From Blautia sp. An249 (GTDB lineage Bacteria > Bacillota > Clostridia > Lachnospirales > Lachnospiraceae): a DNA stretch of 64,000 nt. Below the pieces are notes generated by a model, which searched no databases, was not told the DNA's origin, and worked only from the letters and a program-made list of their open reading frames with translations. The translations under genes were made by a program, and so were the position numbers. The DNA is taken from NCBI RefSeq assembly GCF_002159835.1, contig NZ_NFJL01000010.1:1-64000 (forward strand), read 5' to 3'. Below are positions 9,719 through 60,377 of the stretch, one piece after another (the first letter of the stretch is position 1; each line of letters starts with the position of its first letter).

Positions 9719-9741
9719 AGCGGGAATAAAAAAGTGAAAGT

Positions 9742-9779: not shown

Positions 9780-9812
9780 TTTCCATAAAAATATAACACC
9801 AGGGAGAAAGCA

Positions 9813-16361: not shown

Positions 16362-16520
16362 AATAAAATAAAATCCTCCTGTTAAATAATTTTTTAGGAG
16401 TAGTATAGCATGGGATTTTAAAAGGCGCAAGTTGAAAATTTTACTGTTTCTGAAACAAATTTACAGGCAGGTATAAAGTAAAATAGAAGAAAGATTACGG
16501 AGATGACAGGGGATGAAATT

Positions 16521-44197: not shown

Positions 44198-44608
44198 ATG
44201 GAATCAAGAGTGGAACAGGCCATCGAAAGACATAAAAGAGGCTTTAACTGTGCACAGGCAGTGGCCTGCACGTATTGTGATTTGGCAGGAGTCAGCGAAG
44301 ACGTTATGTTTCGGATGATGGAAGGATTCGGAGCGGGAATGGGCGCCATGGAATGTACCTGCGGAGCTGTTTCCGGAGCAGTTGCTGTGGCAGGAATGAA
44401 AAACAGCAATGGAAGGGATCTGGCCAACAGTAAGGGGAAGACCTATCAGTTATCCAGGAAAATTACCAACGAGTTTCGGGAGAAAAACGGAAGTACGGTC
44501 TGTAAAGACTTAAAAGGAGTGGAAACAAAACAGGTTCTTCGTTCCTGCGACGGGTGTATTGCCGATGCTGCAGAGCTGGTAGAGAAAATTCTGTTTACAC
44601 AGGAATAG
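44198..44608 (+). CDS. C_GCAxxG_C_C family putative redox protein
   Basis: 136 aa. The defining motif is present: FNCAQAV, then ECTCGAVSGAVAVAG, and late cysteines VCKDLKG and CDGCIADAAELVE. Family members are thought to bind a metal or act in redox chemistry. Co-directional with the YczE-like gene. Confidence 0.88.
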   Translation: MESRVEQAIERHKRGFNCAQAVACTYCDLAGVSEDVMFRMMEGFGAGMGAMECTCGAVSGAVAVAGMKNSNGRDLANSKGKTYQLSRKITNEFREKNGSTVCKDLKGVETKQVLRSCDGCIADAAELVEKILFTQE

Positions 44609-44611
44609 AAA

Positions 44612-44641
44612 TTCATATAGGGAATCTCAGGCGCATACACT
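44612..44641 (+). promoter_or_regulatory. Sigma-E-type promoter of spoIIID
   Basis: TTCATATA (44612-44619), 14-bp spacer, CATACACT (44634-44641). The Bacillus sigma-E consensus is close to GTCATATT, 14 bp, CATACACT, so the -10 is perfect and the -35 nearly so. It fits the mother-cell expression of spoIIID known in Bacillus. Confidence 0.8.
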
Positions 44642-44669
44642 GTAGAAACAGCGTTTTTGGGGGAATACC

Positions 44670-44837
44670 TTGAAAGATTATATAGAAGAGCGGGCAGTTG
44701 AGATTGCAAATTATATTATTGAGACGAAAGCGACGGTGAGGCAGACCGCCAAGAAGTTCGGAATCAGCAAAAGTACGGTACATATGGTTGTAACAAAACA
44801 GAACGGTTTCATTAAAAGGACTATTTCCTTAAGGTAA
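44670..44837 (+). CDS. spoIIID: spoIIID, 5' portion (residues 1-38), interrupted
   Basis: TTG start with GGGGG about six bases upstream. The first 38 codons read MKDYIEERAVEIANYIIE, then ATVRQTAKKFGISKSTVH, the SpoIIID N-terminus up to the recognition helix of its helix-turn-helix. From 44784 the frame enters the inserted element and ends after 17 foreign residues at 44837, giving a 55-aa product that lacks half of the DNA-binding motif. The missing 52 codons are at 55149-55307. Joined at the shared TACATA, the two halves make a 90-aa protein of normal SpoIIID length. SpoIIID is the mother-cell DNA-binding regulator acting between sigma-E and sigma-K. Not a decayed gene: both halves are intact. 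Confidence 0.93.
   Translation: MKDYIEERAVEIANYIIETKATVRQTAKKFGISKSTVHMVVTKQNGFIKRTISLR
44779..44784 (+). other. attL core of the spoIIID element
   Basis: TACATA, shared with 55144-55149. The central CA (44781-44782) is the likely crossover dinucleotide of a serine recombinase. To its right, TATGGTTGT forms one arm of the palindrome whose other arm ends the element at 55137-55145. Confidence 0.8.
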
Positions 44838-44847
44838 TTCATACAAA
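44818..44847 (+). promoter_or_regulatory. Candidate sigma-E promoter of the recombinase genes
   Basis: GGACTATT (44818-44825), 14-bp spacer, CATACAAA (44840-44847). Each hexamer region differs from the sigma-E consensus at one position, and the spacing equals that of the spoIIID promoter. It lies inside the element, 34 bp before the first ORF. Confidence 0.65.
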
Positions 44848-44880
44848 TGAAAAAAGAGCCGGGAAAGCAGTGAAATTTGT

Positions 44881-45024
44881 ATGAAAGAGGAAAAGAAACT
44901 GGTTTTTCAATTTCATAATCCCAATACGGACGAAGATACGATCCGAATATTGATGCAGGTGTTTTGTGAGAAAAACCGAAGCAAGGCGGAGAAATATCTT
45001 CAGGAAAGGGGGCGGCGGCAATGA
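44881..45024 (+). CDS. 47-aa protein preceding the recombinase; directionality-factor candidate
   Basis: Begins MKEEKKLVFQFHNPNTDE and ends YLQERGRRQ. It is small and charged with a predicted helix in the middle (DTIRILMQVFCEKNRSKAEK). The stop overlaps the recombinase start as ATGA (45021-45024), so translation is coupled. Small proteins beside serine integrases, such as SprB of SPbeta, act as excision factors. That role here is only inferred from size and position. The ribosome site is weak, so the exact start is uncertain. Confidence 0.65.
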   Translation: MKEEKKLVFQFHNPNTDEDTIRILMQVFCEKNRSKAEKYLQERGRRQ

Positions 45025-46514
45025 GGGTGGCCGCCTACTGCCGGGTATCCACAGATAAAACCGATCAGATGAACAGCCTGGAAACACAGAAAAAGTTTTT
45101 TCTGGAGTTTACCCGGAGAAATCAGTATCAACTGGCAGATCTGTATGCAGATGAAGGAATTTCCGGAACAAAGATTAAGAACCGGAAGGAATTTCAAAGA
45201 CTGATGGAAGACGCCGGGAAGGGTCTGTTTGATATGGTTGCAGTAAAAGATATTTCCAGATTCGCCAGAAACACAGTAGACTTTCTGCAGAGTATCCGTA
45301 CCCTGAAAGGACTGGGAATTGAGACCACGTTTTTAACTGCCAACATGACAGTACTTGGAAACTCGGAATTCGTCCTTACCATATTCGGAGCCCTGGCCCA
45401 GGAGGAAAGCGCTAATACCTCCAAAAGAGTGAAGTTCGGGAAAAAGATGAATGCACAAAAAGGTCGGGTTCCCAATCTGGTATACGGCTATGATAAGACG
45501 CCGGGAGACTATTTTCATCTTCAGATCAACCTTCAGGAAGCCTTTCAGGTACGGAGAATTTATGACTGGTATGAGAAAGAGGGATACGGAGCCGGGAAAA
45601 TCGCCGGACTTTTAAATGCCAGAGGGTATCAGACCAAGCGGGGCTGTCAGTGGAGCCAGAACGCGGTCTGCCGTATCCTGACCAATCCCCTTTATACCGG
45701 CAAGGTCATTAACGGGAAAGAAGAGGTGGCGGATTTCCTTACAGGAGCCAGGGTGGAGAAAGAACAGGAAGAGTGGATGGTGGCCCAAAGGCCGGAATTA
45801 AAGATCATTGAACCGTCTCAGTTTGAGCGGGTGCAGGAGATTCTCTGCCGGCGCAGGGAAACCTTTCAGACAGACAGGAAACGTCACAGCAGCCGCTATC
45901 TGTTCAGCACCCTCATTCAGTGTAAAGAATGCGGATGGTCTTACCGGAGAATCCAGAGGACTTACAAAAATACGTATGTCCGCTGGACTTGTTCCGGAAG
46001 AAGCCAAAACGGGGTGAAAAGCTGCCATAATCATGTGACCGTGGACGAGACTGTTTTAATACAGGAAATCCAGGACTATTTCATTCATTTACTGGAGAGA
46101 CAAGGTGTAAAAATCCGGGAAATCCGAAAAGAAATGGAAAAACAACTATCCCTGCAGAAAACAGAAAAAGAAGAGGAAAAGCAGTGGGTGTTTCATCTGA
46201 GAAAGCTGGAAAAAAGGCGGGAAAAATACAGAGAAATGTTTCTGGAAGATCTGATAGAAAAGGAGGAGCTGAGACAAAGGACGGAAACAATCGGGGAAGA
46301 GATTCGGGAGCTGAAGGAGAAGATAGGAGCTCTGCACCCGGGAGAAGGAACGAAGGAACAAATCCGGCAGATTCTGAAGGAACAATTTCAGGAACTGCGG
46401 GATTTTCTTTCCTTTGAGGAACTGGGAAACGGACAGATAAAACAACTGGTGGAAAAAATAGAAATTGACGGGGAGGGCAGGGTACAGATCTATCTGAAAA
46501 AGGCAAAGCTGTGA
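45021..46514 (+). CDS. Large serine recombinase (SpoIVCA/CisA type) of the spoIIID element
   Basis: 497 aa. The resolvase catalytic domain begins RVAAYCRVSTDKTDQMNSLE with nucleophile Ser10 and includes ISRFARNTVDFLQSI. The recombinase domain follows (GYGAGKIAGLLNARGYQTKR, NPLYTGKVINGKEEV), then a zinc ribbon with CKECGWSYRR...WTCSGR...SCHN and a long coiled coil (about 365-460) typical of the DNA-bridging part of large serine integrases. It should recombine the two TACATA-core sites. Size and position just inside the left end match SpoIVCA in skin. Its promoter looks like sigma-E, which would limit excision to the mother cell. Confidence 0.95.
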   Translation: MRVAAYCRVSTDKTDQMNSLETQKKFFLEFTRRNQYQLADLYADEGISGTKIKNRKEFQRLMEDAGKGLFDMVAVKDISRFARNTVDFLQSIRTLKGLGIETTFLTANMTVLGNSEFVLTIFGALAQEESANTSKRVKFGKKMNAQKGRVPNLVYGYDKTPGDYFHLQINLQEAFQVRRIYDWYEKEGYGAGKIAGLLNARGYQTKRGCQWSQNAVCRILTNPLYTGKVINGKEEVADFLTGARVEKEQEEWMVAQRPELKIIEPSQFERVQEILCRRRETFQTDRKRHSSRYLFSTLIQCKECGWSYRRIQRTYKNTYVRWTCSGRSQNGVKSCHNHVTVDETVLIQEIQDYFIHLLERQGVKIREIRKEMEKQLSLQKTEKEEEKQWVFHLRKLEKRREKYREMFLEDLIEKEELRQRTETIGEEIRELKEKIGALHPGEGTKEQIRQILKEQFQELRDFLSFEELGNGQIKQLVEKIEIDGEGRVQIYLKKAKL

Positions 46515-46550
46515 TATACTGATAAAAAGAATGTTGGGCGGTGAGAATAC

Positions 46551-47570
46551 ATGGGATTTTATATTGTACATAATGATCTTGTTGAAATGGAGACAGACGC
46601 CATCGTAAACGCGGCCAATTCTCATCTGGAACGGGGCGGAGGCGTATGCGGAGCCATTTTCCGGGCGGCAGGACCCGAAAAGCTGCAGGAGGAATGCAGA
46701 AAGAAAGCGCCCTGTCCTGTGGGACAGGCAGTACTGACAAAGGGATACGGTCTGAAGGCAAAATACATTATTCATGCGGTAGGCCCCATATGGAAGGGCG
46801 GCGCACAGGGGGAAAGAACCTATCTGGAGAGCGCATACCGCAATGCGCTGAACCTTGCCCGAAAACAGGGATGCCAGTCCATCGCCTTTCCCCTTATCTC
46901 CAGCGGTATTTACGGCTATCCGAAAAAAGAAGCCCTGGAAATCGCTGTAAAAGAATGCAGAGCCTTTCTGGAGAATCAGGAGATGGAAATCTACCTGGTT
47001 GTTTTAGACCGGACGGTGGTGGAGTTAAGCGAACATCTTTACGGAAAAATCCGGCATTATATTGACACGTATTATACGGGAAACAGAGACAGACGGAGAG
47101 AAGAAAGCACTTCTTTTGAGCAGATATATGCATCTTCCCCTGAGTCTCTCTGTACGGCTTTGCCAAAGGAGACGGACAAGCCATCCCCCAGGGGAATCAA
47201 AAGGAGTCTGGAACAGTTATTAAAAAGAAAAGGCGAGACCTTCCAGGAGATGCTCTTTCGCCTGATTGATGAAAGAGGCTTTACCGATGTGCAGGTTTAT
47301 AAAAGAGCCAATATGGATCGGAAACTGTTTTCCAAAATCCGCAGCAGGAAAGACTATACGCCCAGAAAGTCAACGGTACTGTCTCTGGCGGTAGCGCTTA
47401 AGCTGTCTTTGGACGAGACGGTGGATCTGCTGGGAAAAGCAGGCTACAGCCTGACCGATCATCTGAAATCGGATATTATCCTTCGTTACTTTCTGGAAAA
47501 CAGAATCTATGACATTGACCAGATAAACGAAGCCTTATTCTGCTTTGGAGAGTCTCTTCTGGGACTGTAA
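46551..47570 (+). CDS. Macro-domain protein with C-terminal helical domain
   Basis: 339 aa. Residues 1-165 are a macro domain: DAIVNAANSHLERGGGVCGA is the ADP-ribose loop, SIAFPLISSGIYGYPKKEAL the second binding loop. Such domains bind or hydrolyse ADP-ribose and its protein adducts. Residues 210-339 form a separate helical domain, beginning SLEQLLKRKGETFQEMLFRL, with STVLSLAVALKLSLDETVDL and LLGKAGYSL, resembling an XRE-like helix-turn-helix. It recurs in other macro proteins of Clostridia. Inside the spoIIID element, 36 bp after the recombinase. A role in reversing ADP-ribosylation is likely; the matching transferase is not seen nearby. Confidence 0.9.
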   Translation: MGFYIVHNDLVEMETDAIVNAANSHLERGGGVCGAIFRAAGPEKLQEECRKKAPCPVGQAVLTKGYGLKAKYIIHAVGPIWKGGAQGERTYLESAYRNALNLARKQGCQSIAFPLISSGIYGYPKKEALEIAVKECRAFLENQEMEIYLVVLDRTVVELSEHLYGKIRHYIDTYYTGNRDRRREESTSFEQIYASSPESLCTALPKETDKPSPRGIKRSLEQLLKRKGETFQEMLFRLIDERGFTDVQVYKRANMDRKLFSKIRSRKDYTPRKSTVLSLAVALKLSLDETVDLLGKAGYSLTDHLKSDIILRYFLENRIYDIDQINEALFCFGESLLGL

Positions 47571-47594
47571 ATGTCGCCCGGGATGCGACCAAAG

Positions 47595-47648
47595 TCTTCG
47601 TTTCCTCTGCTAATATAAAGGCAGAAAGGAAAAAGGAGGAAACGAAGA
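47595..47648 (+). promoter_or_regulatory. Inverted repeat sequestering the VWA gene ribosome site
   Basis: TCTTCGTTTCCTC (47595-47607) is the exact complement of 47636-47648, which covers the GGAGG ribosome site and the A of the start codon. A nested CTGC/GCAG pair shortens the loop. In RNA this would hide the start of the VWA gene. Confidence 0.6.
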
Positions 47649-48328
47649 TGAAGAAACGGACGGAACTGGTTTTTATTATAGACAGGAGCGGCTCCATGTG
47701 TGGGCTGGAGACAGACACCATAGGCGGCTTTAACGGAATGCTGGAGAAGCAGAAGAAGGAACCGGGCGAGGCCTTTGTAACAACGGTTTTATTCGATGAT
47801 CAATATGAGAGGATACATCAGAGAGTTCCCATCCATAAGGTACGGCCCCTCACGGCCAGAGAGTATTATGTGAGAGGATGTACGGCCCTTCTGGACGCAG
47901 TGGGCAGAACCATCCAATATATGATTTCTGTTCAGAGAAACCTGGAGGAAGAGGAGCGGGCAGATCAGGTAATCTTTGTGATTACCACAGACGGATATGA
48001 AAATGCCAGCCGGGAATATACCTATAGTCGGATCCAGAAGATGATTACCCATGAGAAAGAAAAATACGGCTGGGAGTTTCTCTTCCTGGGCGCAAACATG
48101 GATGCGGAAATGGAAGCGGGAAAGTTCGGCATCGGCCGGGATCGGGCGGTGACCTACTGCAATGACAGCCAGGGAGTACAGGCCAACTATGAAGCCATGA
48201 CCGTGGCGGTCAGCCAGATGCGGTGCAGTTCGGCTTCTGTAGGAAGCCAATGGAAATCGGCAGTGGAAAAGGACAGAGAGAAACGCCGGAAAAAGGCAAG
48301 AAAAATTTTTGGGAAATTCAGAGAGTAA
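47648..48328 (+). CDS. VWA-domain protein (TerY-like)
   Basis: 226 aa, one von Willebrand A domain filling the protein. ELVFIIDRSGSMCGLETDT supplies the DxSxS metal site, VRGCTALLDAVGRTI the Thr, and QVIFVITTDGYENAS the third loop. Soluble, without signal peptide. Stand-alone VWA proteins of this type occur in tellurite/stress-response loci together with kinases. Located after the macro-domain gene within the spoIIID element. Confidence 0.88.
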   Translation: MKKRTELVFIIDRSGSMCGLETDTIGGFNGMLEKQKKEPGEAFVTTVLFDDQYERIHQRVPIHKVRPLTAREYYVRGCTALLDAVGRTIQYMISVQRNLEEEERADQVIFVITTDGYENASREYTYSRIQKMITHEKEKYGWEFLFLGANMDAEMEAGKFGIGRDRAVTYCNDSQGVQANYEAMTVAVSQMRCSSASVGSQWKSAVEKDREKRRKKARKIFGKFRE

Positions 48329-48422
48329 TCTCCTTTTGAAAACAAAATTACAATTCTGGTTTTGTAGAATGAATACATCAAAAGAAAACAAACAGGAATT
48401 GAATCAAGAGGAGGAAATAGAG

Positions 48423-49817
48423 ATGAAAAAGAAGTTATGGAAATCAACAATTTGCGGAGCAGCGGCTCTTTTACTTGCAGGATTTTGTTTTCCGCCCCAG
48501 ACAGCCTGGGCAGGTATGGGAAATTACAATTTTGTATCCATTGAAGGAGGAACTGTCGACAGCATTACAGTAAACGGAGTGACTGTAGAGGCCAAATACC
48601 GTCCCTATGACAGCAGTGTAAATACGGATACCACATATAGCTGCGCGGCTTTTGTAAAACGGTTTTACAGTGAAGTATACGGAAGGAACGTTTCCGGGCT
48701 GCTGTCCACCACTTCTGTTCCGGCCATCGACTCCGGAAGTTTTAAAGAGACCATATCCCCAAAGGTGGGAGATATTGTCCGGGATAATGAGAGTGTGCAC
48801 TGGGCCATTGTAAAAGAGGTAAATCAAAATATTGTAACCGTTATCCAGCAGAATGCCTGGGATAGTTCTTATACAAAAGCCTGGGTGGGGGCTATGGTGG
48901 AAAACGGAGATTCCCAGTATACCTTCTTTACCTGGGACGGAAATACGGCTTCCGCTGCTCCCACTGCAGGAAACTATACCATTCACTATCAGGAGCCCCA
49001 GATTCAGGAGACAACAGCCGTGCTCTCTGCCAAAGTGGATAATCCCGGCCGGGTAAACGTAAGCCAGGTGGGATGTTATCTGTGGGATGCCCAGGATAAC
49101 TTAATTAAGAGACATGTGGAGGACTGCCGGCGTCCGGAAAGCCGGTTCAATATGTGGTATGATGTACAGGGAGAGCTGGGGATTGCGCTTACAGCAGGAA
49201 CTACTTACAAATACCAGTTCTTCGTTATACAGGACGGAAAAGAATATCCGGGAACCATTCAGACCTTTACCACAGCGGGAGCCGCTCCTGTAAAAACAGA
49301 GGCAGATACGAAAGGCCAGATCGAAGGAGCGCCTGTTTCCACAGAAGCCACAGATCATGTGACGGTAACAGATGATGAAATACAAAGAACGATCGGCAAG
49401 GTTCGTGAAATTTACGGATGGGAAAAGAAGTATGTGGATGAAAGTCTGCAGGGACAGTCTTATCTGGTGCAGATTAATACCAAAGGCGAAGTGGATTATT
49501 TCTCGGTAGATACGTTAATGGAGCGCCCTGCCTCTCTGGTTTTAACCATTGAAAATGACCGTGTGGTGAAATCCCAGTGGATATATGAATATTCCAGTGG
49601 TTCTGAGGCGGCTTTTGCGGCCAGCCAGGATCTGTATCAGCAGATTTGCAAAGCGGCGGACGGGAGAATCAGCGGGGAGAAGACCAGCCTTTGCAAAGAT
49701 GTGGATAATATGACGACCACCTATAAAGATAAACTGGAAATTGTAAGAGACAAAAACGGAGAGAAACCGTACGTATCCATTACAGTATTAAGCGCTTTTC
49801 AGGACATAATAGGATAA
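48423..49817 (+). CDS. Secreted CHAP/NlpC-like protein
   Basis: 464 aa from the ATG at 48423 (AGGAGG upstream). Signal peptide MKKKLWKSTICGAAALLLAG ending near AWA. An amidase-like domain follows with candidate catalytic Cys in DTTYSCAAFVKRFYSEVYG and His in VGDIVRDNESVHWAIVKEV, the CHAP/NlpC pattern. A central beta-rich, Fn3-like region and a C-terminal DUF-like region (DDEIQRTIGKVREIYGWEKK) make up the rest. It may cut peptidoglycan or act on another peptide. Last rightward gene of the element; ends at a bidirectional terminator. Confidence 0.78.
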   Translation: MKKKLWKSTICGAAALLLAGFCFPPQTAWAGMGNYNFVSIEGGTVDSITVNGVTVEAKYRPYDSSVNTDTTYSCAAFVKRFYSEVYGRNVSGLLSTTSVPAIDSGSFKETISPKVGDIVRDNESVHWAIVKEVNQNIVTVIQQNAWDSSYTKAWVGAMVENGDSQYTFFTWDGNTASAAPTAGNYTIHYQEPQIQETTAVLSAKVDNPGRVNVSQVGCYLWDAQDNLIKRHVEDCRRPESRFNMWYDVQGELGIALTAGTTYKYQFFVIQDGKEYPGTIQTFTTAGAAPVKTEADTKGQIEGAPVSTEATDHVTVTDDEIQRTIGKVREIYGWEKKYVDESLQGQSYLVQINTKGEVDYFSVDTLMERPASLVLTIENDRVVKSQWIYEYSSGSEAAFAASQDLYQQICKAADGRISGEKTSLCKDVDNMTTTYKDKLEIVRDKNGEKPYVSITVLSAFQDIIG

Positions 49818-49827
49818 GGTAAAGTTG

Positions 49828-49867
49828 TATGGGCGCGAACTGCTTCAGTTCACGCCCATAATTTTTT
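49828..49867 (+). terminator. Bidirectional terminator at the meeting point of the element's two operons
   Basis: A 15-bp stem, TATGGGCGCGAACTG with its complement (one mismatch), loop CTT, then ATTTTTT. It lies between the convergent CHAP-like and 455-aa genes and overlaps the 3' end of the latter. Confidence 0.85.
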
Positions 49868-51212
49868 CATATTCCTGCCGGTAGTTCTTGGAATCCTTGT
49901 ACATATTATAGAAAAAGAAATTTTCTTCTTTTTCCGCATAACGGGTCACCTCTTCCATCAGTAGATCCTCCGGATCGGGGCAGGTAAGATACTGATAAAT
50001 AAACTGATCAAAGGCATTTTGGTTCACCAGCTTTGAAAAACCACATTCCAGAAGGATGTCATCCAGCCGTTGGGGAGTTACCTGAAACTCTTCATTAAGA
50101 GAGCTGGAACGGGCGAAAAACAAAAGGAAACAGATAAAAGTAGTACGATCCAAATCCAGGGCGCCCTTGATATACTTGCGGACCGTATTTTCTCCGGAAC
50201 GGTTTCTCTGATAGCCCCGATCCGTGCTGTCCAGAGAATAGATCTGATCCAGTTTTTCCTCTTCTTTCTGCATTTGCTGAATTTTCAGAGAAAGCACCTC
50301 TTCATCACTCAATCCCCTTAAATGAGAGTCATAATGACGCAGCGACTCTGCCAGCCGTTTCTTCTGATGGTCTGGGAGATGTTTCAGATCCCCATAGGAT
50401 TCCAGAAGGACTTCCAGCCAGTCCAGAGATACATAGCCGAAATAGAAATAATTGAAATTATCGAAAATCTCCCGGCAGGAAATGCCTGTCTGAGACAGGA
50501 AGTCCCGAACCTGGGTATCCTCCATTTTCTTTCGTTTCAGCTGAGTAAGACCTTTAAAGACAGAAAGCTCCGCCAGGGCCTCCCCGGAATCTGCAGCCGA
50601 ACGGCGGGCGGTCAGATAGCCTTCGACCTTGTCCGTCAGGTAAAAGTAGAGATATTTGCAGAAATAATACCTGGTTTTTTCCCTTACAGGACTAAAGGAA
50701 TGAAGATTCGCATTCAGAAACTGACGGAAATCTTCCTGGGTATTGCCAATCTGTGAAATCTGATATTCCATAACCCGGGTTAAATGCTCCGTCCGCAGAA
50801 GGTGGGCGTCCTCCCGGGAATTCTCCGACAGATACCGTTCCAGTTCCTGCAGGGTGATCTGTTTGCTGAAATATGGATCCTCCTCTTTAGACTGGTCAAA
50901 CATGGATTTACAAATATCCTGGAGTTTGCGCCATTCCTCATAAGAAACATGGTGCAAAAAAGCAAAAACCAGGCTGGCTTCCCAGAGACTTCTGGAGTAT
51001 AACTGGGCGCAGCCCTCCTGGAGAAGCTTTTCGTTTAACTGCTCCAGGGTCTCTCCCTTTAAAAAGGCCAGTGCAATCAGACGGTAACGCAGAGGCACTT
51101 TTTTCATAACGCCAGTGTTTCTGGACATACATTCGTCCAGCATCTGATCCCCTAAAGGAGCGTCCAGAACATCCTGTATCATTTTATCAAAAACAGAAGC
51201 TGCTTTCGTCAT
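49845..51212 (-). CDS. Unknown helical protein of the spoIIID element
   Basis: 455 aa, no signal peptide or membrane helix, rich in Leu, Glu, Arg and aromatic residues and probably all-helical. No catalytic motif is recognised. The C-terminal region (RKYIKGALDLDRTTFICFLL, then FQVTPQRLDDILLECGFSKL and FDQFIYQYL) resembles in layout the C-terminal helical domain of the macro-domain protein at 46551. It follows the kinase gene by 21 bp with its own AAAGGA site, so it is the end of a three-gene operon and a possible kinase substrate or adaptor. Function not assigned. Confidence 0.75.
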   Translation of the reverse strand: MTKAASVFDKMIQDVLDAPLGDQMLDECMSRNTGVMKKVPLRYRLIALAFLKGETLEQLNEKLLQEGCAQLYSRSLWEASLVFAFLHHVSYEEWRKLQDICKSMFDQSKEEDPYFSKQITLQELERYLSENSREDAHLLRTEHLTRVMEYQISQIGNTQEDFRQFLNANLHSFSPVREKTRYYFCKYLYFYLTDKVEGYLTARRSAADSGEALAELSVFKGLTQLKRKKMEDTQVRDFLSQTGISCREIFDNFNYFYFGYVSLDWLEVLLESYGDLKHLPDHQKKRLAESLRHYDSHLRGLSDEEVLSLKIQQMQKEEEKLDQIYSLDSTDRGYQRNRSGENTVRKYIKGALDLDRTTFICFLLFFARSSSLNEEFQVTPQRLDDILLECGFSKLVNQNAFDQFIYQYLTCPDPEDLLMEEVTRYAEKEENFFFYNMYKDSKNYRQEYEKIMGVN

Positions 51213-51233
51213 AAGATCAATCCTTTCCCTGTT

Positions 51234-54053
51234 TTAGTTGGTATAGAAATTAAAATCTTCACTTACCGCAAAAGGCTGATAGAAACTGTCTGTCTTTAAT
51301 TGTTCCATCAGTTCCTCCTGCTTTGCTTTTGCCAGTTTCTTTCCCATATAAACAGTCATTGTGGGCGTATAATCACTGTAGAGAGAAAAATAGACGGAGA
51401 GATCCTCTCCCGGTTCAATCTGATCCGTATCCATTCGGAAGTTTACAGAACGGTAATACCCGTCCTGCAGATTGCAGGTCTGGTAAAGCTGTTTTACCGT
51501 TTCCAGAAAATCCTCCACAAGGTGTTCGTCATAAGGAAAAGGCAGGGTCACAGTCAGAGAATCCTTATTTCCTGCCTCATCCACAGATATGGAAGCGTCC
51601 AGTTTCTCAGCCTCCTGCTCTATCTGTTCCAGACGGGGACTTTCCAGAATCTCATAAGATTCCAGGTCAACCCCCATATCCAGAAGGGACTGGCTGTCGG
51701 TAAAGCTGGCATGTTCCAGCGTATAGTAGCTGCTGTTTGTGGTCTCGCAGGCCATAGTATATAAAAACTGACGCATATTTTCCGGTTTCAGGCGGGAAGT
51801 ATCCCAGAGAAAATCAGAAAATGTAAAGAATCCATTGGAAATTTCCTCCGTTAAAGGAAACTCTGCGATTTTAAAGCTGTTGCCTACCAGCAGGTAGAGA
51901 GAGTCTCTCTGGTTCTGGAGGGTCTTTTGAGTCCGTTCCAGAATGGATTCTTTTTCATATTCACTGGCTGCCTGAATCTCCCAGTGATAAGAGGGATTTG
52001 TTTTTTCCACAAAGGTAAAATCCTCTCCCAGAGAGTAGGTCCTCAGGGACTGGATGGTATTTCCCATATCAGAAATGGATAAATCCTTTTCTGTCAGCAT
52101 ATACAGAAGATCCAGATACAAATCTTCCCGGGAAAGCTTCAGGGTGATGTAATGTTCCTGGAAAGAGGAAATTCCAAAGGCATAGGGAATCTCCAGAGTA
52201 TCCAGAAGGGTTTTAAAATCAGAAACCGTATTATACCACTGTCCGTTTGGCATATCCTGGCTGCCGGAAGAACAGGAGTATTCCACATAAACAGCAGGGT
52301 CTGCAAGGTCTTCTTCATTCACCTGATTTTCTCCGGCAATCATGGAGGTATCCACATCCTCCCAGGTGGAAGGCGGAATATAGGAATAGGCCAGCCGGTT
52401 TTCGTAAGGCTCATGGGTCAGTTCATAGGCCAGCAGCCGGTAAAAGGCCGGGGACTGAACGGCTCCTGTCAGATAAAAGGTACGATAATCCTCTTCATAA
52501 AAGGTATAAATGGAATACCAGCCTAAGGATCCCGAATAAGAAGTTTCTCCGTTCCAGGAAAGATCCAGATAGAGCCCAAGGGAAGTTCCCGGGTTTTCCT
52601 TCACATAGTCCCGGAGCTTATCGGCTGCTTCTTTCGTTAAAGTAAATTCCAGATAGGAATAATCTCCTGTCTCAGGAAGAGAGGCGTCCGAGCGGGAAAC
52701 GCCTTCCAGTACCCCCTGTTTCACCTGAGCCTTCTCCACATCCCGGGCAGAAAGGGAAAAATCATTGAGGGAAGGTTTGCCTGGCTTGGCCAGACAGAGG
52801 TTTATAAATTCCCAGAGTTCCATGGCAGTTCCGTATGGGGAGCTGCTGTTTTGCACAACAGCCCCATAGGAGTCTGCCGGCATCACCACAGAGACATCCC
52901 CGTTCTTCTTTCGGGAGAGAATATAATTGTCTTCTCCTGTCAGAACCTGGATTCTCTCTTCTAAAATTTCCAGATCCTGCTCATATTCCTTTTGGGAGCT
53001 TTCCTTTGGCCTGGAGAAAGCCAGCGTCATAGTTTCCACTCCCCGGAATTTAAACTCTGCCAGATGCGCCTGATAATACCAGAACCCGGCGCCGGCCAGA
53101 ACACAGAAAAAGCAGAATACAGAGGCAATTCTTATCAGCCATTTCCTGCGGATTTCTCTGGGATCCACTTCCCGGATAATCTCCCGTACAGCTTCCATAA
53201 AAGCATCCATGTTCTGATAGCGGGAAGAAATCTCCAGGGAAAGCCCCTTCATAAGAATCTTTTCCAGAGCCGGATCCATGGAAATACCTAAAGCGCCTGG
53301 TGTCTTCAGCTCATCATGGAGCATCCGCTGAAAGGCATCTTCCGGCGGATTTTTCGTAATACAGAAATAGAGGACGCCGCAGAGGGCGTAAATATCTGTC
53401 CAAGGCCCCAGCCGTCCGTGCCGGTCATACTGCTCGCAGGGAGCATAGCCGCCCTTTAAGACGATGGAACGTGTCTTCTCAGAAAGGAGAGAGAAATCCC
53501 TGGCAGCCCCGAAATCAATTAAAGTCAGGGTCTGATCCGTTCCCAGAATCAGATTGTCGGGACTGATGTCCCGGTGAATAATGCCGTAACTGTGAATTTT
53601 CTTCAAAGTTTCCATAAAAGGAAGCATAAGGCGAAAGGCCTCCCCGGGATCCATGGGGCCATTTTGCTCCACATATTTTTTCAGGGTCTGGCCTTCCAGA
53701 AAGTCCATCACAATATAAGCCGTCTGGTTTTCTTCAAAATAATCCCGGATATGCACGATTCCCGGTTCCCGGGAAAAATCCCGGATAATACGGGCTTCCT
53801 TCAGAAACCGTTTCTTCTGGTGTTCATAATCCTCTCTGCCGTCTTTCTGAAACAGGACCACCTCATTGGTTACCGAGCAGTCCCGCCGGACGTAATCTCT
53901 CCAGAAAAACTCCTTGATGGCAACTTTTTCCTCCTGGTGCAGACAGACTCCCGAATAGGTAATTCCGAAGCCTCCCTCGCCAATCACTTCTTCAATCCGG
54001 TAACGTTCATCCAGTATGGTACCGGGCTTTAAATGATAAATTTCTGTTTTCAC
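51234..54053 (-). CDS. Receptor-like Ser/Thr protein kinase of the spoIIID element
   Basis: 939 aa from the GTG at 54053 (GGGGG upstream); a TTG at 54068 is less likely. Kinase domain residues about 12-275: GEGGFGITYSG, VAIKEFF, HRDISPDNLIL, LIDFGAARDF and GGYAPCEQY. One membrane helix (IRIASVFCFFCVLAGAGFWYY) near residue 315. The outside 600 residues have no recognised domain (not leucine-rich repeats). The kinase part, including GPWTDIYALCGVLYFCIT, closely matches the kinase at 16521 (GPWTDVYALCATIYQCIT). Middle gene of the leftward operon of the element. Confidence 0.92.
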   Translation of the reverse strand: MKTEIYHLKPGTILDERYRIEEVIGEGGFGITYSGVCLHQEEKVAIKEFFWRDYVRRDCSVTNEVVLFQKDGREDYEHQKKRFLKEARIIRDFSREPGIVHIRDYFEENQTAYIVMDFLEGQTLKKYVEQNGPMDPGEAFRLMLPFMETLKKIHSYGIIHRDISPDNLILGTDQTLTLIDFGAARDFSLLSEKTRSIVLKGGYAPCEQYDRHGRLGPWTDIYALCGVLYFCITKNPPEDAFQRMLHDELKTPGALGISMDPALEKILMKGLSLEISSRYQNMDAFMEAVREIIREVDPREIRRKWLIRIASVFCFFCVLAGAGFWYYQAHLAEFKFRGVETMTLAFSRPKESSQKEYEQDLEILEERIQVLTGEDNYILSRKKNGDVSVVMPADSYGAVVQNSSSPYGTAMELWEFINLCLAKPGKPSLNDFSLSARDVEKAQVKQGVLEGVSRSDASLPETGDYSYLEFTLTKEAADKLRDYVKENPGTSLGLYLDLSWNGETSYSGSLGWYSIYTFYEEDYRTFYLTGAVQSPAFYRLLAYELTHEPYENRLAYSYIPPSTWEDVDTSMIAGENQVNEEDLADPAVYVEYSCSSGSQDMPNGQWYNTVSDFKTLLDTLEIPYAFGISSFQEHYITLKLSREDLYLDLLYMLTEKDLSISDMGNTIQSLRTYSLGEDFTFVEKTNPSYHWEIQAASEYEKESILERTQKTLQNQRDSLYLLVGNSFKIAEFPLTEEISNGFFTFSDFLWDTSRLKPENMRQFLYTMACETTNSSYYTLEHASFTDSQSLLDMGVDLESYEILESPRLEQIEQEAEKLDASISVDEAGNKDSLTVTLPFPYDEHLVEDFLETVKQLYQTCNLQDGYYRSVNFRMDTDQIEPGEDLSVYFSLYSDYTPTMTVYMGKKLAKAKQEELMEQLKTDSFYQPFAVSEDFNFYTN

Positions 54054-54098
54054 ATTCTTCCCCCGCAAATCTGTTTTTATAAATATGAAAGCCCGGCT

Positions 54099-55040
54099 TT
54101 AATCCCGCCCGCTCTTTCTCTCCAGAAGATCCCGGATCTGCTTTAACTCCTCTGCATACTTGTGGGAAAAAGCCGTGGGGTTGCGGTGCAGAATCCGAAA
54201 AGCCCGTTTATAAGACTTCGTTGTACGCATCCCCATATTCTTAAATTCCTGTTCAATCTGTCCCTTCAGCTTTAACAGCTCTTCCTTCTTATCCAGTACG
54301 GCAAGCTCATTCACCTTTTCTGCAAGCGTCTTCAAAAGCATTCTTCTGCGGCTGCGCTGTTCTTCCAGAGCCTGCTCAAAGGCATCCTTTCTGGAAAGAC
54401 GTTTTTGTTCCTGGGTTTTCTGATATTGCTGGAGCTCATCCTCCACAATGGCAGTAACCACTTCCAGCCGTTTCTGCAGACGGCGGATGGTCTGGTTGCT
54501 TTCGCTTAAAGTTTCCAGAGTTTCCTTCAGATCCATTGCCTCGTTGAAGGACTGGGTTAAGTCCACCGCAAAAATCAGGGTAAGGAGAATGGATAAAATT
54601 TCAGCAATAAAAGGAGGAATCCAGAGAATTCCCGTCTCCACAGGGGGATGCACCAGTTTCACAAGGAGAAGAGAGAAAAATCCCCATCCAATGGACACCC
54701 CAAGACAAATATGTCCGTTTAAATTAAATTTATTATTACTGTAATCCCAGTAGCGGACGCGGAACAGTTTCTCCATTCCCGCTCCGGTAAAATACTCCAG
54801 TATGGTTGCTCCGGTCATGCCAAAGACAAAGATCAGAATCAGATTGTCCCGCACGCCCATAGTACACAGCAAAACGCAAATGGCGCCGGTTCCATAAATG
54901 GGCAGGAAAGGGCCGTGGAGAAATCCCCGGTTTACCCACCGCTTTTTTCGCACTGAAACATAGCAGGATTCCCAGATCCATCCCACAAAGCAGTAGAAAA
55001 AGAAAAAAAGAACCCATTGACTTATGGTATACTGAAACAT
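54099..55040 (-). CDS. CmpB-like membrane protein with coiled-coil tail
   Basis: 313 aa. The N-terminal 165 residues hold about five membrane helices with FFYCFVGWIWESCYVSVRKK, NRGFLHGPFLPIYGTGAI and DYSNNKFNLNGHICLGVSI, the signature of the putative ABC-transporter-type CmpB family (PF06541). The C-terminal half is a charged coiled coil (for example SNQTIRRLQKRLEVVTAIVE) followed by a basic tail. No ATPase partner is present, so transport is doubtful. First gene of the leftward operon; starts about 100 bp inside the right end of the element. Confidence 0.85.
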   Translation of the reverse strand: MFQYTISQWVLFFFFYCFVGWIWESCYVSVRKKRWVNRGFLHGPFLPIYGTGAICVLLCTMGVRDNLILIFVFGMTGATILEYFTGAGMEKLFRVRYWDYSNNKFNLNGHICLGVSIGWGFFSLLLVKLVHPPVETGILWIPPFIAEILSILLTLIFAVDLTQSFNEAMDLKETLETLSESNQTIRRLQKRLEVVTAIVEDELQQYQKTQEQKRLSRKDAFEQALEEQRSRRRMLLKTLAEKVNELAVLDKKEELLKLKGQIEQEFKNMGMRTTKSYKRAFRILHRNPTAFSHKYAEELKQIRDLLERKSGRD

Positions 55041-55136
55041 TTCACAAATCCTCCCCGGTTAAGTTAGGGCAATTATATCATGAGCGGCGAAAAAAAGAAA
55101 TGACTTCTGTCTGCCAGGCGGCCCTCCCAATTAGCG

Positions 55137-55149
55137 ACAACCATACATA
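55137..55149 (+). other. attR core of the spoIIID element
   Basis: ACAACCATA-CA-TA. ACAACCATA (55137-55145) is the exact inverted repeat of TATGGTTGT at 44783-44791. Circularised, the element would carry the 20-bp palindrome ACAACCATA-CA-TATGGTTGT. The core TACATA is 55144-55149. Confidence 0.8.
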
Positions 55150-55307
55150 AAGACGTTACAGAACGCCTTTTACAGCTAAATCCCTCCCTTGCAAAACAGG
55201 CCAGGCAGGTATTGGATTTAAATAAACAGGAACGGCATATTCGGGGAGGGATGGCAACCCGGAAAAAATATATGGGAATGAATCTGGGACGCTCCAGAAG
55301 AGTGTGA
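55149..55307 (+). CDS. spoIIID: spoIIID, 3' portion (residues 39-90), interrupted
   Basis: 52 codons plus stop with no start of their own: KDVTERLLQLNPSLAKQARQ, VLDLNKQERHIRGGMATRKK, then YMGMNLGRSRRV. This is the recognition-helix end and C-terminal region of SpoIIID; KDVTERL directly continues STVH of the 5' portion, and HIRGG with ATRKKY is the family signature. There is no frameshift or internal stop. A terminator follows at 55314. It can only be translated after excision of the element. Confidence 0.92.
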   Translation, partial: KDVTERLLQLNPSLAKQARQVLDLNKQERHIRGGMATRKKYMGMNLGRSRRV

Positions 55308-55313
55308 AAAAGA

Positions 55314-55362
55314 GAGGAAGAGCGGCGGAGGATGAGACTCCATGGGCTTTTCCTCCTTTTTA
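55314..55362 (+). terminator. Intrinsic terminator of spoIIID
   Basis: GAGGAAGAGC pairs with GCTTTTCCTC (one G-T wobble), followed by CTTTTTAT. Its presence seven bases after the 3' portion shows the original gene end is preserved. Confidence 0.75.
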
Positions 55363-55498
55363 TGTAAGAAAATCCGGCGCAAAAGAAAGAAAATTTGGGC
55401 AGATTTTATCTTGCCCGGCAAAAGGGTCAGATTTATACTGAAACTAACGGGAGATACCATGGGTCATGTATTTCCAAAAGAGAAAGAGGGGACTTCAT

Positions 55499-56854
55499 TT
55501 GAGAAGAAAAAACGAGATTAAGGGGAATTATTTATTCAGCAACCGAGATTTAAAAAGACTGATTATCCCATTAGTGGTAGAACAGTTTCTGGCTATTTTT
55601 GTAGGACTGGCAGATTCCATTATGGTATCTTCCGTCGGCGAGGCGGCCGTCTCAGCCGTTTCTCTGATTGATACCATCATGGTTCTGCTGATAAATATTT
55701 TCACAGCTTTAGCCACAGGAGGCGCTATTGTGGCCGGCCAGGCCATAGGCAGGAAAAATCAGAAAGACGGCTGTGAGGCAGAAGAACAGCTCTTATTATT
55801 TTCCACCCTGTTTTCTGTCTGTATCATGGCATTGATGTATTGCCTGAGAGGTTTTATCCTCCATGTAGTATTCGGTAATATTGAGCCGGAAGTAATGAAC
55901 AACTGCAACACCTATTTTCTGATAGTAACCGCATCGATTCCATTTCTGGCAATGTATAATTCCGGGGCCGCCGTACACCGGGCCATGGGGGACTCCAAGA
56001 CGCCTATGCTGATGTCACTGGTTATGAACGGCATGAATCTGGCAGGAAACGCCGTCCTGCTGTACGGGTTGGGATGGGGAATTGAAGGAGCCGCAATCCC
56101 GACTACCCTTTCCAGAGCTTTTGCCGGGATCTGGATGGTCTGCTGTATGTGTAACCGGAAGAAACAGCTTCACATTCGCTCCATCTGGAAAATCCGTCCC
56201 AAAGGAGCTGTGCTAAAGAAAATCCTGCATCTGGGGATTCCCTACAGTCTGGAAAACAGCATGTTCCAGCTGGGGAAAATTCTGGTTCTCAGCCTGGTAT
56301 CCAGCTTCGGGACAACCTCTATCGCCGCCAACGCCGTAGCAAACAATGTCTGCAACTTTGCCATCATCATCGGAATGTCCATGAATTATGCATTATCCGC
56401 AGTCAGCGCCCAATGCGTGGGCGCCGGGGACTACAGTCAGGTCCGTTATTATACAAAACGGTTGATGAAATACTCCTATGCCGGCCTGGTTTTCATGAAT
56501 GTGCTGATAATAGCCGCGCTGCCTCTGATCATCCGGGTCTATAATCTCTCCCAGGAAACGGGAGTACTGGCAGATAAAATAATAACGTATCATGCCATCT
56601 GCGCGGTTCTGATCTGGGCCGTTGCCTTTACCCTGCCAAACACCCTGCGCGCAGCCAACGACGTGGCTTTCTGCATGTGGGTTTCCATGGCATCCATGTG
56701 GATATTCCGCATTGGCTTCAGCTTCGTACTGGCCAAATACCTGGGAATGGGCGTGTTCGGCGTCTGGGTGGCCATGACCATAGACTGGCTTGTACGGGCT
56801 GCGGTTTTTCTTTTCCGTTACCGGGGAAAACGCTGGGAAAGGAAAAAAATATAG
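55499..56854 (+). CDS. MATE-family multidrug/cation efflux protein
   Basis: 451 aa from a TTG at 55499 (AGAGGGG seven bases upstream); an in-frame ATG at 55466 would add 11 residues. Twelve membrane helices. The two MatE halves are visible at LIIPLVVEQFLAIFVGLADS and ILHLGIPYSLENSMFQLGKI, with GDSKTPMLMSLVMNGMNL in between. Exports drugs or other compounds using a Na+ or H+ gradient. Substrate not predictable. Confidence 0.92.
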   Translation: MRRKNEIKGNYLFSNRDLKRLIIPLVVEQFLAIFVGLADSIMVSSVGEAAVSAVSLIDTIMVLLINIFTALATGGAIVAGQAIGRKNQKDGCEAEEQLLLFSTLFSVCIMALMYCLRGFILHVVFGNIEPEVMNNCNTYFLIVTASIPFLAMYNSGAAVHRAMGDSKTPMLMSLVMNGMNLAGNAVLLYGLGWGIEGAAIPTTLSRAFAGIWMVCCMCNRKKQLHIRSIWKIRPKGAVLKKILHLGIPYSLENSMFQLGKILVLSLVSSFGTTSIAANAVANNVCNFAIIIGMSMNYALSAVSAQCVGAGDYSQVRYYTKRLMKYSYAGLVFMNVLIIAALPLIIRVYNLSQETGVLADKIITYHAICAVLIWAVAFTLPNTLRAANDVAFCMWVSMASMWIFRIGFSFVLAKYLGMGVFGVWVAMTIDWLVRAAVFLFRYRGKRWERKKI

Positions 56855-58551: not shown

Positions 58552-60054
58552 CTATTTTCCAGATATTCCATATATTTTTTCGTATTTAGGAATGGTCGTT
58601 TCAACGATAAAAACATCAAGATCTTTCAGGCTGCCGTTCTGAAGTTCGCATGAGGAAATGGCATCTGAGAACATGGCGAGAAGAAAATCACGAAGATCTT
58701 CTGCCGGCTTAAATGTAGATATGATCCTGACGATCGTATCTCCAAAAGCGATCCAGTCCAGATATGTTTCAAGTTTGTATCCATAAATCGAGTCCGTTGT
58801 TATATCAATCCCGTATTTCCTGAAGATGGACTGATTATTTTTTCGGATATGCTCATTTCCGTGAGATTCAGCTGCGGCCAATATCCCCGTGCTGGCGGGC
58901 CCCAATGGAGATCCGGGAACGGGAATGGCGTGTTGGGTCTCTGGAATAATGAGCTCACTTTCCGTTTCGTACGCTTCTTTCTGCATTAACATTTCAATGT
59001 CTTTGGCCAGCTCCTCATCTGCCCCGGGATAAAGATGAAAATAGGTATCCCACGTTGTCTTAATGGATTCGTGGCCGAGCCGGCGGGAGATCTCCTCAAT
59101 CGGTTTTCCCATGTTAATGAGCATCGCAACGTGGCTATGCCTTAAATCATGGACCCGAATGTCCGTATCTCCGGACCGTTTGATCATGCGCTTGAATTCG
59201 CTATATAGTCCGCCCTTCTTAAAATAGAAGATCCGTTCATCCGGATCAAGCTGCATGCTGTCAATATATTCAAGCACTTCTTTATGCAGAGATACGGGTA
59301 TGGTTACCCTTCGGATGCTCCGCTTCGTCTTGGGCGTTAAGAAATATTCGACTCCGTCCACAACGGCGTAGTTCTTATTTATATCAATAACGGGCTCTTC
59401 TCTTGGAACATCCTCCGGGGTGATGGCCAGAGCCTCGCCTTCCCTCGCTCCTGTGTAGAATAGAATTTTAAAAATGATACGATACGAAGGCTTTTGCTCG
59501 AATAGCATGGCGTGCTCAAACTGATCCGGCGTCCAGAAATTCATTTCCGCCGCATGGCTCTCTCCGATACTGCCTGCTATGTAACAGGGATTTATCCGCA
59601 GGCGGTAGTATTTTACTGCATAATTAAATATGGACGATAGCTGCGAATTTATTGTATGCAGATATGTCTCGGCGTATGGTTTTCCTTTTTCATCCCTATA
59701 ATCGATAAGGGAATTCTGCCATCTGCGGACCAGATCGGCGTCAATATCACATATCCGTCGGGATCCGAAGAAAGGGAGCAGCTTCTTTTCTATTATGTAC
59801 CTCTTCCCTTTCAGTGTTGTGAGTTTTAGGCGGCTCTCCATATCTTCAAGATAATTTTTTGCAAGAGAAGAGAACTGTATGGTCGGCTCCTTTGAAAAAC
59901 GGTCTAAAAAGCTGTACTCATATTCCCTGGCAGCACCTTTCGTATCGAAACCTCTCTTACATTTGTGCTTCTTCTGGCCGAGCCAGTCTGTGTAATAAAA
60001 ATTTGCATACCATTTCGTCTTCCCATCGGCTGTCTGATATTTGTATGCGGGCAT
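58552..60054 (-). CDS. int: Tyrosine-type site-specific integrase
   Basis: 500 aa from the ATG at 60054 (AGGAG seven bases upstream). An N-terminal arm-binding domain (AYKYQTADGKTKWYANFYYT), a SAM-like core-binding domain, then the catalytic domain with Arg204 (YTGAREGEAL), His302 and Arg305 (HDLRHSH), His328 (RRLGHES) and Tyr338 (TWDTYFHLY). About 130 residues follow the usual end, with TESELIIPETQHAIPVPGSP linking to a helical region of unknown role; ordinary phage integrases of this group stop near 370-390 aa. Its position indicates guaA as the attachment gene. Confidence 0.94.
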   Translation of the reverse strand: MPAYKYQTADGKTKWYANFYYTDWLGQKKHKCKRGFDTKGAAREYEYSFLDRFSKEPTIQFSSLAKNYLEDMESRLKLTTLKGKRYIIEKKLLPFFGSRRICDIDADLVRRWQNSLIDYRDEKGKPYAETYLHTINSQLSSIFNYAVKYYRLRINPCYIAGSIGESHAAEMNFWTPDQFEHAMLFEQKPSYRIIFKILFYTGAREGEALAITPEDVPREEPVIDINKNYAVVDGVEYFLTPKTKRSIRRVTIPVSLHKEVLEYIDSMQLDPDERIFYFKKGGLYSEFKRMIKRSGDTDIRVHDLRHSHVAMLINMGKPIEEISRRLGHESIKTTWDTYFHLYPGADEELAKDIEMLMQKEAYETESELIIPETQHAIPVPGSPLGPASTGILAAAESHGNEHIRKNNQSIFRKYGIDITTDSIYGYKLETYLDWIAFGDTIVRIISTFKPAEDLRDFLLAMFSDAISSCELQNGSLKDLDVFIVETTIPKYEKIYGISGK

Positions 60055-60079
60055 AATCAATCTCCTTGTCGCATAAGAT

Positions 60080-60108
60080 TTGACAAATAGCCCCCGAATG
60101 TATATAAT
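60080..60108 (+). promoter_or_regulatory. Consensus promoter of the predicted antisense RNA
   Basis: Perfect TTGACA (60080-60085), 17 bp, perfect TATAAT (60103-60108), pointing toward the toxin gene's 3' end. Confidence 0.85.
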
Positions 60109-60130
60109 GTACTTAACAAGGGAACCGTTG
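60101..60130 (+). repeat. Left arm of a 30-bp inverted repeat flanking the toxin module
   Basis: 27 of 30 bases match the reverse complement of 60340-60369. The arm contains the antisense promoter's -10 and the first part of its RNA. Confidence 0.8.
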
Positions 60131-60217
60131 GTCAGTGTACACCTGACCGCCGGGAAAATAAGTACTATAAAAGAAATAGCGCCTTACTTTACCAGAGCAG
60201 GGGCGCTATTTTTTGTG
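60115..60217 (+). ncRNA. Predicted antisense RNA antitoxin (about 100 nt)
   Basis: From a consensus promoter to an intrinsic terminator (AAATAGCGCC at 60174 with GGCGCTATTT at 60202, then a T-run). No convincing ORF with a ribosome site. It overlaps the 3' end of the convergent toxin mRNA by about 50 nt, the arrangement of type I systems such as txpA/RatA. Confidence 0.6.
60174..60217. terminator. Bidirectional terminator shared by toxin and antisense RNA
   Basis: A perfect 10-bp stem AAATAGCGCC/GGCGCTATTT with an 18-nt loop. T-rich on the right for plus-strand RNA and, read leftward, TTTCTTTTA for the toxin mRNA. Confidence 0.8.
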
Positions 60218-60295
60218 CTTAATTATCGTTACGACAAGGGTAATTACAGCACAAAGCATGATGACAAACGTAAACAAGTCACTGTATGTAACCAT
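60206..60295 (-). CDS. Small holin-like toxin, type I candidate
   Basis: 29 aa: MVTYSDLFTFVIMLCAVITL followed by VVTIIKHKK. One membrane helix and a basic C-terminus, matching the putative holin-like toxin family. Strong AGGAGG (60305-60310) nine bases upstream. Its own TATAAT lies at 60362-60367, so the leader is about 60 nt. The stop codon is inside the shared terminator stem. The short length, antisense RNA and mobile-element setting fit a type I toxin that depolarises the membrane when unchecked; toxicity is inferred. Confidence 0.75.
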   Translation of the reverse strand: MVTYSDLFTFVIMLCAVITLVVTIIKHKK

Positions 60296-60339
60296 AAGCA
60301 CCAGCCTCCTTTCTTTCGTCCGGCGGCTGCATAGCACCT

Positions 60340-60369
60340 CAACGGTTCCCCGGTTAAGTACATTATATT
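60340..60369 (-). repeat. Right arm of the 30-bp inverted repeat, with toxin promoter -10
   Basis: Matches the left arm at 27 of 30 positions in inverted orientation. On the minus strand it gives TATAAT (60367-60362) with AAGACA 15 bp upstream, a plausible toxin promoter. Both RNAs would start with nearly the same 20 nt. Confidence 0.7.
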
Positions 60370-60377
60370 TTCAGAGG

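Follow-up and report, generated by a model that had tools for sequence, protein, structure and literature searches.

A large serine recombinase element splits the sole spoIIID gene of Blautia sp. An249 at a recurrent integration site

The sporulation gene spoIIID of Blautia sp. An249 was found to be split by an element that encodes a large serine recombinase and measures 10,365 bp from core to core. The analysis started from a stretch of 64,000 nt (NZ_NFJL01000010.1, positions 1-64,000, forward strand), which is called the window in the following. SpoIIID is the regulator placed between sigma-E and sigma-K in the mother-cell cascade. The element appears to occupy a bacterial attachment site (attB) inside the gene and is likely excised in the mother cell, where spoIIID would be rebuilt; from the arrangement of sites and genes we infer that excision takes place during sporulation. 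Elements of a single recombinase clade, among them a phage, mobilizable elements and small elements, have integrated into spoIIID repeatedly.

Anatomy of the split gene

Both halves of spoIIID were intact and lay in order and in a single orientation on either side of the element, with the split at the codons TVH|KD. This agrees with a preliminary description of the window, made from the letters alone, which had proposed a gene split by a recombinase element of about 10.4 kb. Joining the halves at the hexamer TACATA, which occurs at both junctions as that description had stated, restored a 90-aa SpoIIID with SKSTVHKDVTERL uninterrupted. In the unexcised form the frame of the 5' part continues to 44837 and comprises 55 aa. 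The features concerned are the following.

44613 to 44641, plus strand: sigma-E-like promoter of spoIIID (-35 TCATATA at 44613, N14, -10 CATACACT at 44634)
44670 to 44784, plus strand: 5' part of spoIIID, TTG start at 44670, residues 1-38 including the core
44779 to 44784, plus strand: attL core TACATA, directly followed by the right attachment (att) arm of the element (TATGGTTGTAAC...)
44819 to 44847, plus strand: predicted sigma-E-like promoter of the 47-aa gene and the recombinase gene, GACTATT-N14-CATACAAA, 12/14 positions
44881 to 45024, plus strand: 47-aa protein, predicted recombination directionality factor, overlapping the recombinase start by ATGA
45021 to 46514, plus strand: large serine recombinase, 497 aa, with Resolvase, Recombinase and zinc-ribbon domains
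55115 to 55149, plus strand: left att arm and attR core TACATA (core 55144-55149)
55150 to 55307, plus strand: 3' part of spoIIID, stop codon TGA included

In the complete genome data (3.94 Mb, 68 contigs, 99.91% complete) the two halves were the sole PF12116 matches, both above the cut-off, and no second intact spoIIID was found by this search, a copy against which the preliminary description had warned. In these respects the arrangement is like that of skin: the only spoIIID copy is split, the open reading frame is restored at a shared core, and a site-specific recombinase is encoded in between. The sigma-E-type promoter described ahead of spoIIID was present and matched 13 of 14 positions of the consensus (KMATATT, N13-15, CATACANT); no other site in the 64 kb, both strands counted, scored as high. 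The terminator described behind the gene was not recovered in a strict scan of 54900-55600.

Attachment sites

The predicted circle junction, in which the right end of the element runs into its left end, reads ACAACCATA-CA-TATGGTTGT, an inverted repeat whose 9-bp arms match perfectly and flank a central CA. The odds of such a repeat lying exactly at the predicted centre by chance are about 4^-9, and the recurrence of the split at one codon in other species likewise speaks against chance. For the phage attachment site (attP) of serine recombinases a symmetric repeat with a dinucleotide at its centre has been reported (PMC5595907, in the part available). Rebuilt attP arms were perfect over 15 bp in Marasmitruncus massiliensis and over 21 bp in a Pelosinus metagenome-assembled genome (MAG), with a 10-bp spacer in each. 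The inner arms were less regular in many elements, and among 30 rebuilt loci a 9-bp run was reached only by the window and L080. An outer pair of arms (ACCGTTCTA...TAGAACGGT) was seen by eye in many relatives.

The att arm just inside attL (44789-44797) reads TGTAACAAA. It resembles TGTAACAAT, a SpoIIID box that has been described ahead of CD1234 in C. difficile (PMC5025042, in part), and may be no more than a recombinase arm.

Recombinase, small protein and promoters

The recombinase frame contained no internal stops, and the serine was found within the conserved start AYCRVSTD. Its Resolvase, Recombinase and zinc-ribbon domains, together with the attP inverted repeat around a central dinucleotide, are those of a large serine recombinase. 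The best database names were CcrB and XisF, both far under their cut-offs.

Homologues of the 47-aa protein (47-80 aa, consensus KLNYRFHNPN) were present in 36 of 41 oriented element loci, the window included; none was detected in G036, G097, G262, L099 and L105. They were 24-43% identical to the window copy in an alignment of 24 sequences. An AlphaFold model showed an extended start and two helices (mean predicted local distance difference test score 89.6); no PDB fold, no PDB sequence below E 0.16 and no Pfam family above its cut-off matched the protein. The small gene lies kilobases from the recombinase gene in several relatives and overlaps it in the window. The protein is a likely candidate for the recombination directionality factor of these elements.

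A sigma-E-like site was located 41 bp ahead of the 47-aa gene. Only four sites on both strands of the whole window scored at least 12/14, namely the spoIIID promoter (13), the site of the 47-aa gene (12) and two others. Among the element loci a score of at least 11 was reached upstream of the small gene in 16 of 36 cases, with about 4 expected; for the recombinase the upstream region reached it in 5 of 41, with about 4.6 expected. These counts rest on related and hence non-independent loci. When the sites were anchored on CATA with N14, 27 of the 36 loci matched [GT][AC][AC]TATT at 6 or 7 of 7 positions, the pattern having been loosened after inspection and the best CATA per region taken; for the column counts six near-duplicates were removed and G189 was blank. 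No sigma-70-type site was found in 44300-45300. GACTATT-N14-CATACAAA is put forward as a predicted sigma-E promoter. The skin element of C. difficile and SP-beta are reported to combine a constitutive recombinase with a small factor that is controlled by the mother cell (PMC5595907 and PMC5025042, both in part).

Split spoIIID in other genomes

SpoIIID matched above the cut-off in 38 of 64 Blautia genomes, with full length in 25, as two halves in 11 and with the 3' half only in 2. The halves lay on one contig in nine of the 11 genomes and on two contigs in the other two. At E <= 1e-90 the recombinase was present in 12 of the 64 genomes, once in each, and all 12 had a split spoIIID (the recombinase of G041 was interrupted by a contig end); at the same threshold it was absent from the 25 Blautia genomes with an intact gene.

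In an even draw from the host's family (248 genomes, at least 95% complete) 158 genomes were above the cut-off, 140 with a full-length match and 18 with partial matches only. Sixteen of these 18 were re-examined, the other two being G000 and G015, and 14 of the 18 fit the common split codon. The other four were G187, with the 3' half only, G146, with halves cut elsewhere, G064, with internal stops, and G160, in which the crossover was a few bases off the common codon and the recombinase in the locus was merely 23% identical to that of the window. SpoIIID was restored at [VI]H|KD in 33 of 34 rebuilt loci (29 of 30 in one set, where G160 failed, and 4 of 4 in a second). Both halves were on one sequence piece in 23 of the 34, with elements of 3.5-17.7 kb, and on separate contigs in nine (G061, G042, G081, G154, G160, G200, Anaerobacterium, Pelosinus and Pseudoflavonifractor). 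The distance between the halves was about 75 kb in G138 and about 125 kb in Marasmitruncus. Eight genomes reached via recombinase loci had split halves and no intact SpoIIID match; they include B. glucerasea (G001), Pseudoflavonifractor phocaeensis, Schaedlerella arabinosiphila, Marasmitruncus massiliensis, Anaerobacterium chartisolvens and the Pelosinus MAG. The split architecture was also found on single large contigs of 3.5 Mb (G008), 3.7 Mb (G016) and 4.7 Mb (G062).

Conserved synteny of the locus with relatives, as suggested by the C_GCAxxG and MATE genes named in the preliminary description as neighbours of an intact spoIIID, was rejected. The C_GCAxxG protein was beside none of 25 intact Blautia loci (flanks of about 1.5 kb), and the MATE query gave a single match near these loci with only 25% identity, so these neighbours are not kept.

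Some further loci were observed. A class-wide draw contained genomes from several other families in which SpoIIID gave two partial matches but none of full length (among them G354, G363, G365, G423, G542, G559 and G580), which are possible further split cases. The spoIIID halves of G160 (L171, L172) and G187 (L173) were accompanied by recombinases only 23-28% identical to that of the window, and a second recombinase family may use spoIIID too. In L046 (G031) an extra spoIIID 5' part with an attL-like junction (about 1594-2180) precedes an intact spoIIID by some 350 bp and looks like a 5' end once carried in by an element, or like a scar that an element left behind.

The recombinase clade and its mobile members

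Eighty listed recombinase loci were compared. In the class of 53-61% identity (L077-L108) the spoIIID 3' half was nearby in 30 of 32, the exceptions being L085 and L097. Three loci belonged to the class of 47-49%; L111 and L112 had the 3' half, and for L110 it lay beyond the compared stretch. Among the other 45 loci (L109, L113-L156) a convincing spoIIID piece was found in the fragment L121 only. In a tree of 60 recombinases the Blautia label required 7 changes, at least 3 of them forced by well-supported branches, which implies that Blautia acquired such elements repeatedly. The window recombinase formed a lone long branch. Five Blautia species had most of one element in common, with 94-100% protein identity, and a relaxase was present in the element of G056.

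The IMG/VR contigs L195-L197 carried a recombinase relative of 59% identity whose gene continues into an unsplit attP; the arms of this site are 9 bp long and flank CA. The three were identical across the 1.6 kb compared and are perhaps one phage; genes for PhoH, NrdD and an endolysin lay near the recombinase. The records, possibly fragments themselves, gave no spoIIID match over their whole length. Their recombinase frame reads through attP (tail CTYRSNKIERLIWRIK), while in integrated relatives the frame ends at the core and the last base of the TAA is provided by spoIIID. This attP confirms the geometry of the site for the clade, not the excision of the window element. The faecal phage record MT838016.1 was rejected as an excised circle because it contains the spoIIID 3' half and is an integrated form. 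A search of a plasmid collection gave no match at E 1e-60.

The recombinase cluster of the window (P0121) had 18 members on 13 contigs, and the next full-length relatives without internal duplication were 62% identical. P0122-P0124 were rejected as closer relatives, as their scores exceeded those of the 62% relatives solely via internal duplications. No SpoIIID identical to the joined one was found among 120 listed proteins, the best being about 90% identical over 88-89% of the query, in a search of 90% clusters that could hide an identical joined protein. Thirteen contigs and no joined SpoIIID fit an element that is static in growing cells, and fit a fossil equally.

Content of the element

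Downstream of the recombinase gene the element carries the following cargo.

46551 to 47570, plus strand: macro-domain protein
47648 to 48328, plus strand: VWA-like protein, weak match
48309 to 49817, plus strand: 502-aa open reading frame, no family recognised
49845 to 51212, minus strand: 455-aa open reading frame, no family recognised
51234 to 54068, minus strand: Ser/Thr protein kinase
54099 to 55040, minus strand: CmpB-like protein (PF06541)

The G+C content was 46.6% in the element and 45.5-45.6% in the flanks. No relaxase, transfer, phage structural or lysis genes were recognised by Pfam in seven open reading frames, and PHROGs, applied to four frames of the window, likewise recognised no structural or lysis genes of phages; the recombinase itself matched a phage integrase family. 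With the genes recognised, the element would be classed neither as a prophage nor as an integrative mobilizable or conjugative element.

The recombinase gene abuts the spoIIID 3' half in most relatives; in the window it is at the 5' end instead. The right end of the element (55115-55149) still reads QAALPISDNHT*, which resembles the C-terminal tails of the relatives' recombinases and suggests that the gene order of the window element may have been permuted. The window element is thus an unusual member of the clade, with its recombinase gene at the 5' end behind a sigma-E-like promoter and no mobility gene recognised.

Several further genes were noted. The kinase of the element (51234-54068) resembles PD-T4-6 kinase models. 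In the spoIIID element of another Blautia, L036 (G027), Wadjet-type defence genes (4529-11108; JetA, JetC and JetD matches) lie between the small gene and the recombinase gene, and the element of G001 has a DzbA-like protein at the same place; this spot may be a site for defence cargo. Outside the element, a second large Ser/Thr kinase with leucine-rich repeats was encoded at 16503-19331. A helix-turn-helix regulator and, on the minus strand, a tyrosine-type phage integrase of 502 aa are encoded directly downstream of guaA (58552-60929) and are probably the end of another integrated element.

Proposed mechanism and alternative explanations

According to the mechanism proposed, sigma-E in the mother cell would switch on the 47-aa factor and the recombinase. 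These would recombine attL with attR, the circle would leave, and spoIIID would be rebuilt and its product made, while the forespore would retain the element. The order would be sigma-E, excision, SpoIIID and then the sigma-K genes. Excision of C. difficile skin is reported to depend on sigma-E and SpoIIID (PMC5025042, in part); as spoIIID itself is interrupted here, sigma-E would have to trigger excision with no help from SpoIIID.

The principal alternative is that spoIIID is merely the attachment site of a mobile family, that insertion inactivates the gene so that normal spores are lost, and that excision serves transfer only. The relatives do include phage and mobilizable elements with relaxase or primase-like genes, and near-identical elements occur across different Blautia species, so that recent transfer is common. 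Most Blautia strains are moreover sporeless according to a review (PMC7872077, in the portion available). Against this, spoIVA was above the cut-off and full length in 13 of 13 split Blautia genomes, compared with 21 of 25 intact and 3 of 26 spoIIID-less ones. Both halves of spoIIID remain intact, and selection constrains them as it does unsplit copies. The ratio of nonsynonymous to synonymous substitution rates (dN/dS) of the joined gene to its nearest intact relative was 0.006-0.12 in 11 split Blautia and 0.048 in the window, and the median ratio of nonsynonymous to synonymous differences (pN/pS) was 0.168 for intact-intact (300 pairs), 0.171 for split-intact (275) and 0.160 for split-split comparisons (55). 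A sigma-E-like promoter stands at the small gene, and no mobility gene was recognised in the window element. Marasmitruncus massiliensis P3646T, whose sole spoIIID is split, has been described as spore-forming, with spores seen in micrographs (PMC9584879, in part). We consider this alternative unlikely, though it is the strongest of those weighed.

It is improbable that the window element is a fossil, with a dead recombinase and dead sites and with SpoIIID dispensable or replaced, so that the split is neutral. The lone long branch of the recombinase, the left outer arm, which is less well kept, and the 13 contigs and missing joined protein, which show no excision, would fit such a state. The 497-aa recombinase, however, is free of stops and has its three domains and the serine in AYCRVSTD, the inner arms are perfect over 9 bp, the 47-aa gene is intact, and so are both spoIIID parts, at the dN/dS value given above. 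That the split is an artefact of assembly or binning, an error already considered in the preliminary description, is very improbable even for a draft of 68 contigs, since the recombinase cluster is found on 13 contigs, matching att arms stand at the two junctions, and the same architecture occurs on single large contigs of other species.

Several observations weigh against excision in the mother cell as the preferred explanation. Low dN/dS values of spoIIID would be equally expected after recent insertion. C. difficile is reported to form spores without SpoIIID to some degree (PMC5025042, in part), so that a spore-forming carrier is no proof of excision. The genome has two uninterrupted SigK/SigE-type genes, either of which may be sigK; their matches fell under the TIGR02846 cut-off, as did those of 63 of the 64 genomes. 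Of the two outer att arms the right is the better kept, and the left resembles it less closely than in relatives. The excised junction of the window element gave no match in viral contigs as an exact attP pattern, nor did a degenerate pattern for the family, the latter judged too strict since the recombinase search later found attP-bearing phage contigs. The sigma-E scan was scored against a consensus from Bacillus, and most relatives' small-gene promoters read CATAG where the window reads CATACA.

Comparison with known systems

Intervening elements have been reported in sigK, spsM, spoVFB, spoVR, gerE and yabG (PMC10747680, PMC4191935 and PMC5595907, each in part). For spoIIID no report was found in searches of one open-access library, outside which most subscription papers lie, and the statement of the preliminary description that no such case was known stands to this extent. 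Its likeness to skin in sigK was upheld: the anatomy and the symmetry of attP support it, as do the retained sporulation genes, the recurrence and the fact that no intact copy was found. The view of a single case was not upheld. Among the sporulation genes, those of the SpoVA family were present in G000, G001, Schaedlerella and Marasmitruncus.

Skin in sigK (spoIVCA in B. subtilis, CD1231/CD1234 in C. difficile) is likewise a serine recombinase element splitting the gene of a mother-cell regulator. In B. subtilis skin the recombinase gene closely follows the 5' part and is read in the same direction, an order shared with the window, and C. difficile skin has a small directionality factor under sigma-E control (PMC10747680 and PMC5025042, in the parts available), a function only predicted for the 47-aa protein. 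Unlike skin, the window element targets a gene one step higher, and the SpoIIID dependence of C. difficile skin would be impossible here. The element gin in gerE of Bacillus cereus ATCC10987 is a non-prophage element with the serine recombinase GirC and the 42-aa factor GirX that splits a mother-cell transcription factor gene (PMC5595907, in part). It is likened here by description, not by sequence, and differs in its 28.6 kb, its three recombinases and a target that acts after sigma-K. SP-beta in spsM, vfbin in spoVFB, vrin in spoVR and yin in yabG are recombinase elements that split other sporulation genes (PMC4191935 and PMC10747680, in part); yin is reported there from a single strain only, whereas elements in spoIIID are found again and again across many genera. 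The skin-type principle is already known; new are the higher target spoIIID, the families of recombinase and small protein, and the wide recurrence.

A broader interpretation, which we favour with somewhat less confidence than excision in the mother cell, is that spoIIID would be the home of a mobilome. One recombinase clade and one family of small factors would serve phages, mobilizable elements and pared-down residents, with the sigma-E programme of the doomed mother cell as the signal for excision. In a third of spoIIID-bearing Blautia the regulator would then be available only after rearrangement, as a timer dependent on sigma-E alone one step above the sigK switch. The window would represent the domesticated form, with factor and recombinase genes together behind a sigma-E promoter.

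If SpoIIID is produced only once the element has left, the mother-cell cascade of many gut Firmicutes would have a DNA-level checkpoint above those named in the papers cited here, and one that cannot lean on SpoIIID as excision of C. difficile skin does. It would also account for spoIIID seeming to be missing in gut anaerobes that retain other sporulation genes. The element offers a new pair of recombinase and attB with a candidate directionality factor, and its relatives suggest that mobile DNA has more than once taken a terminally differentiating cell as its safe way out.

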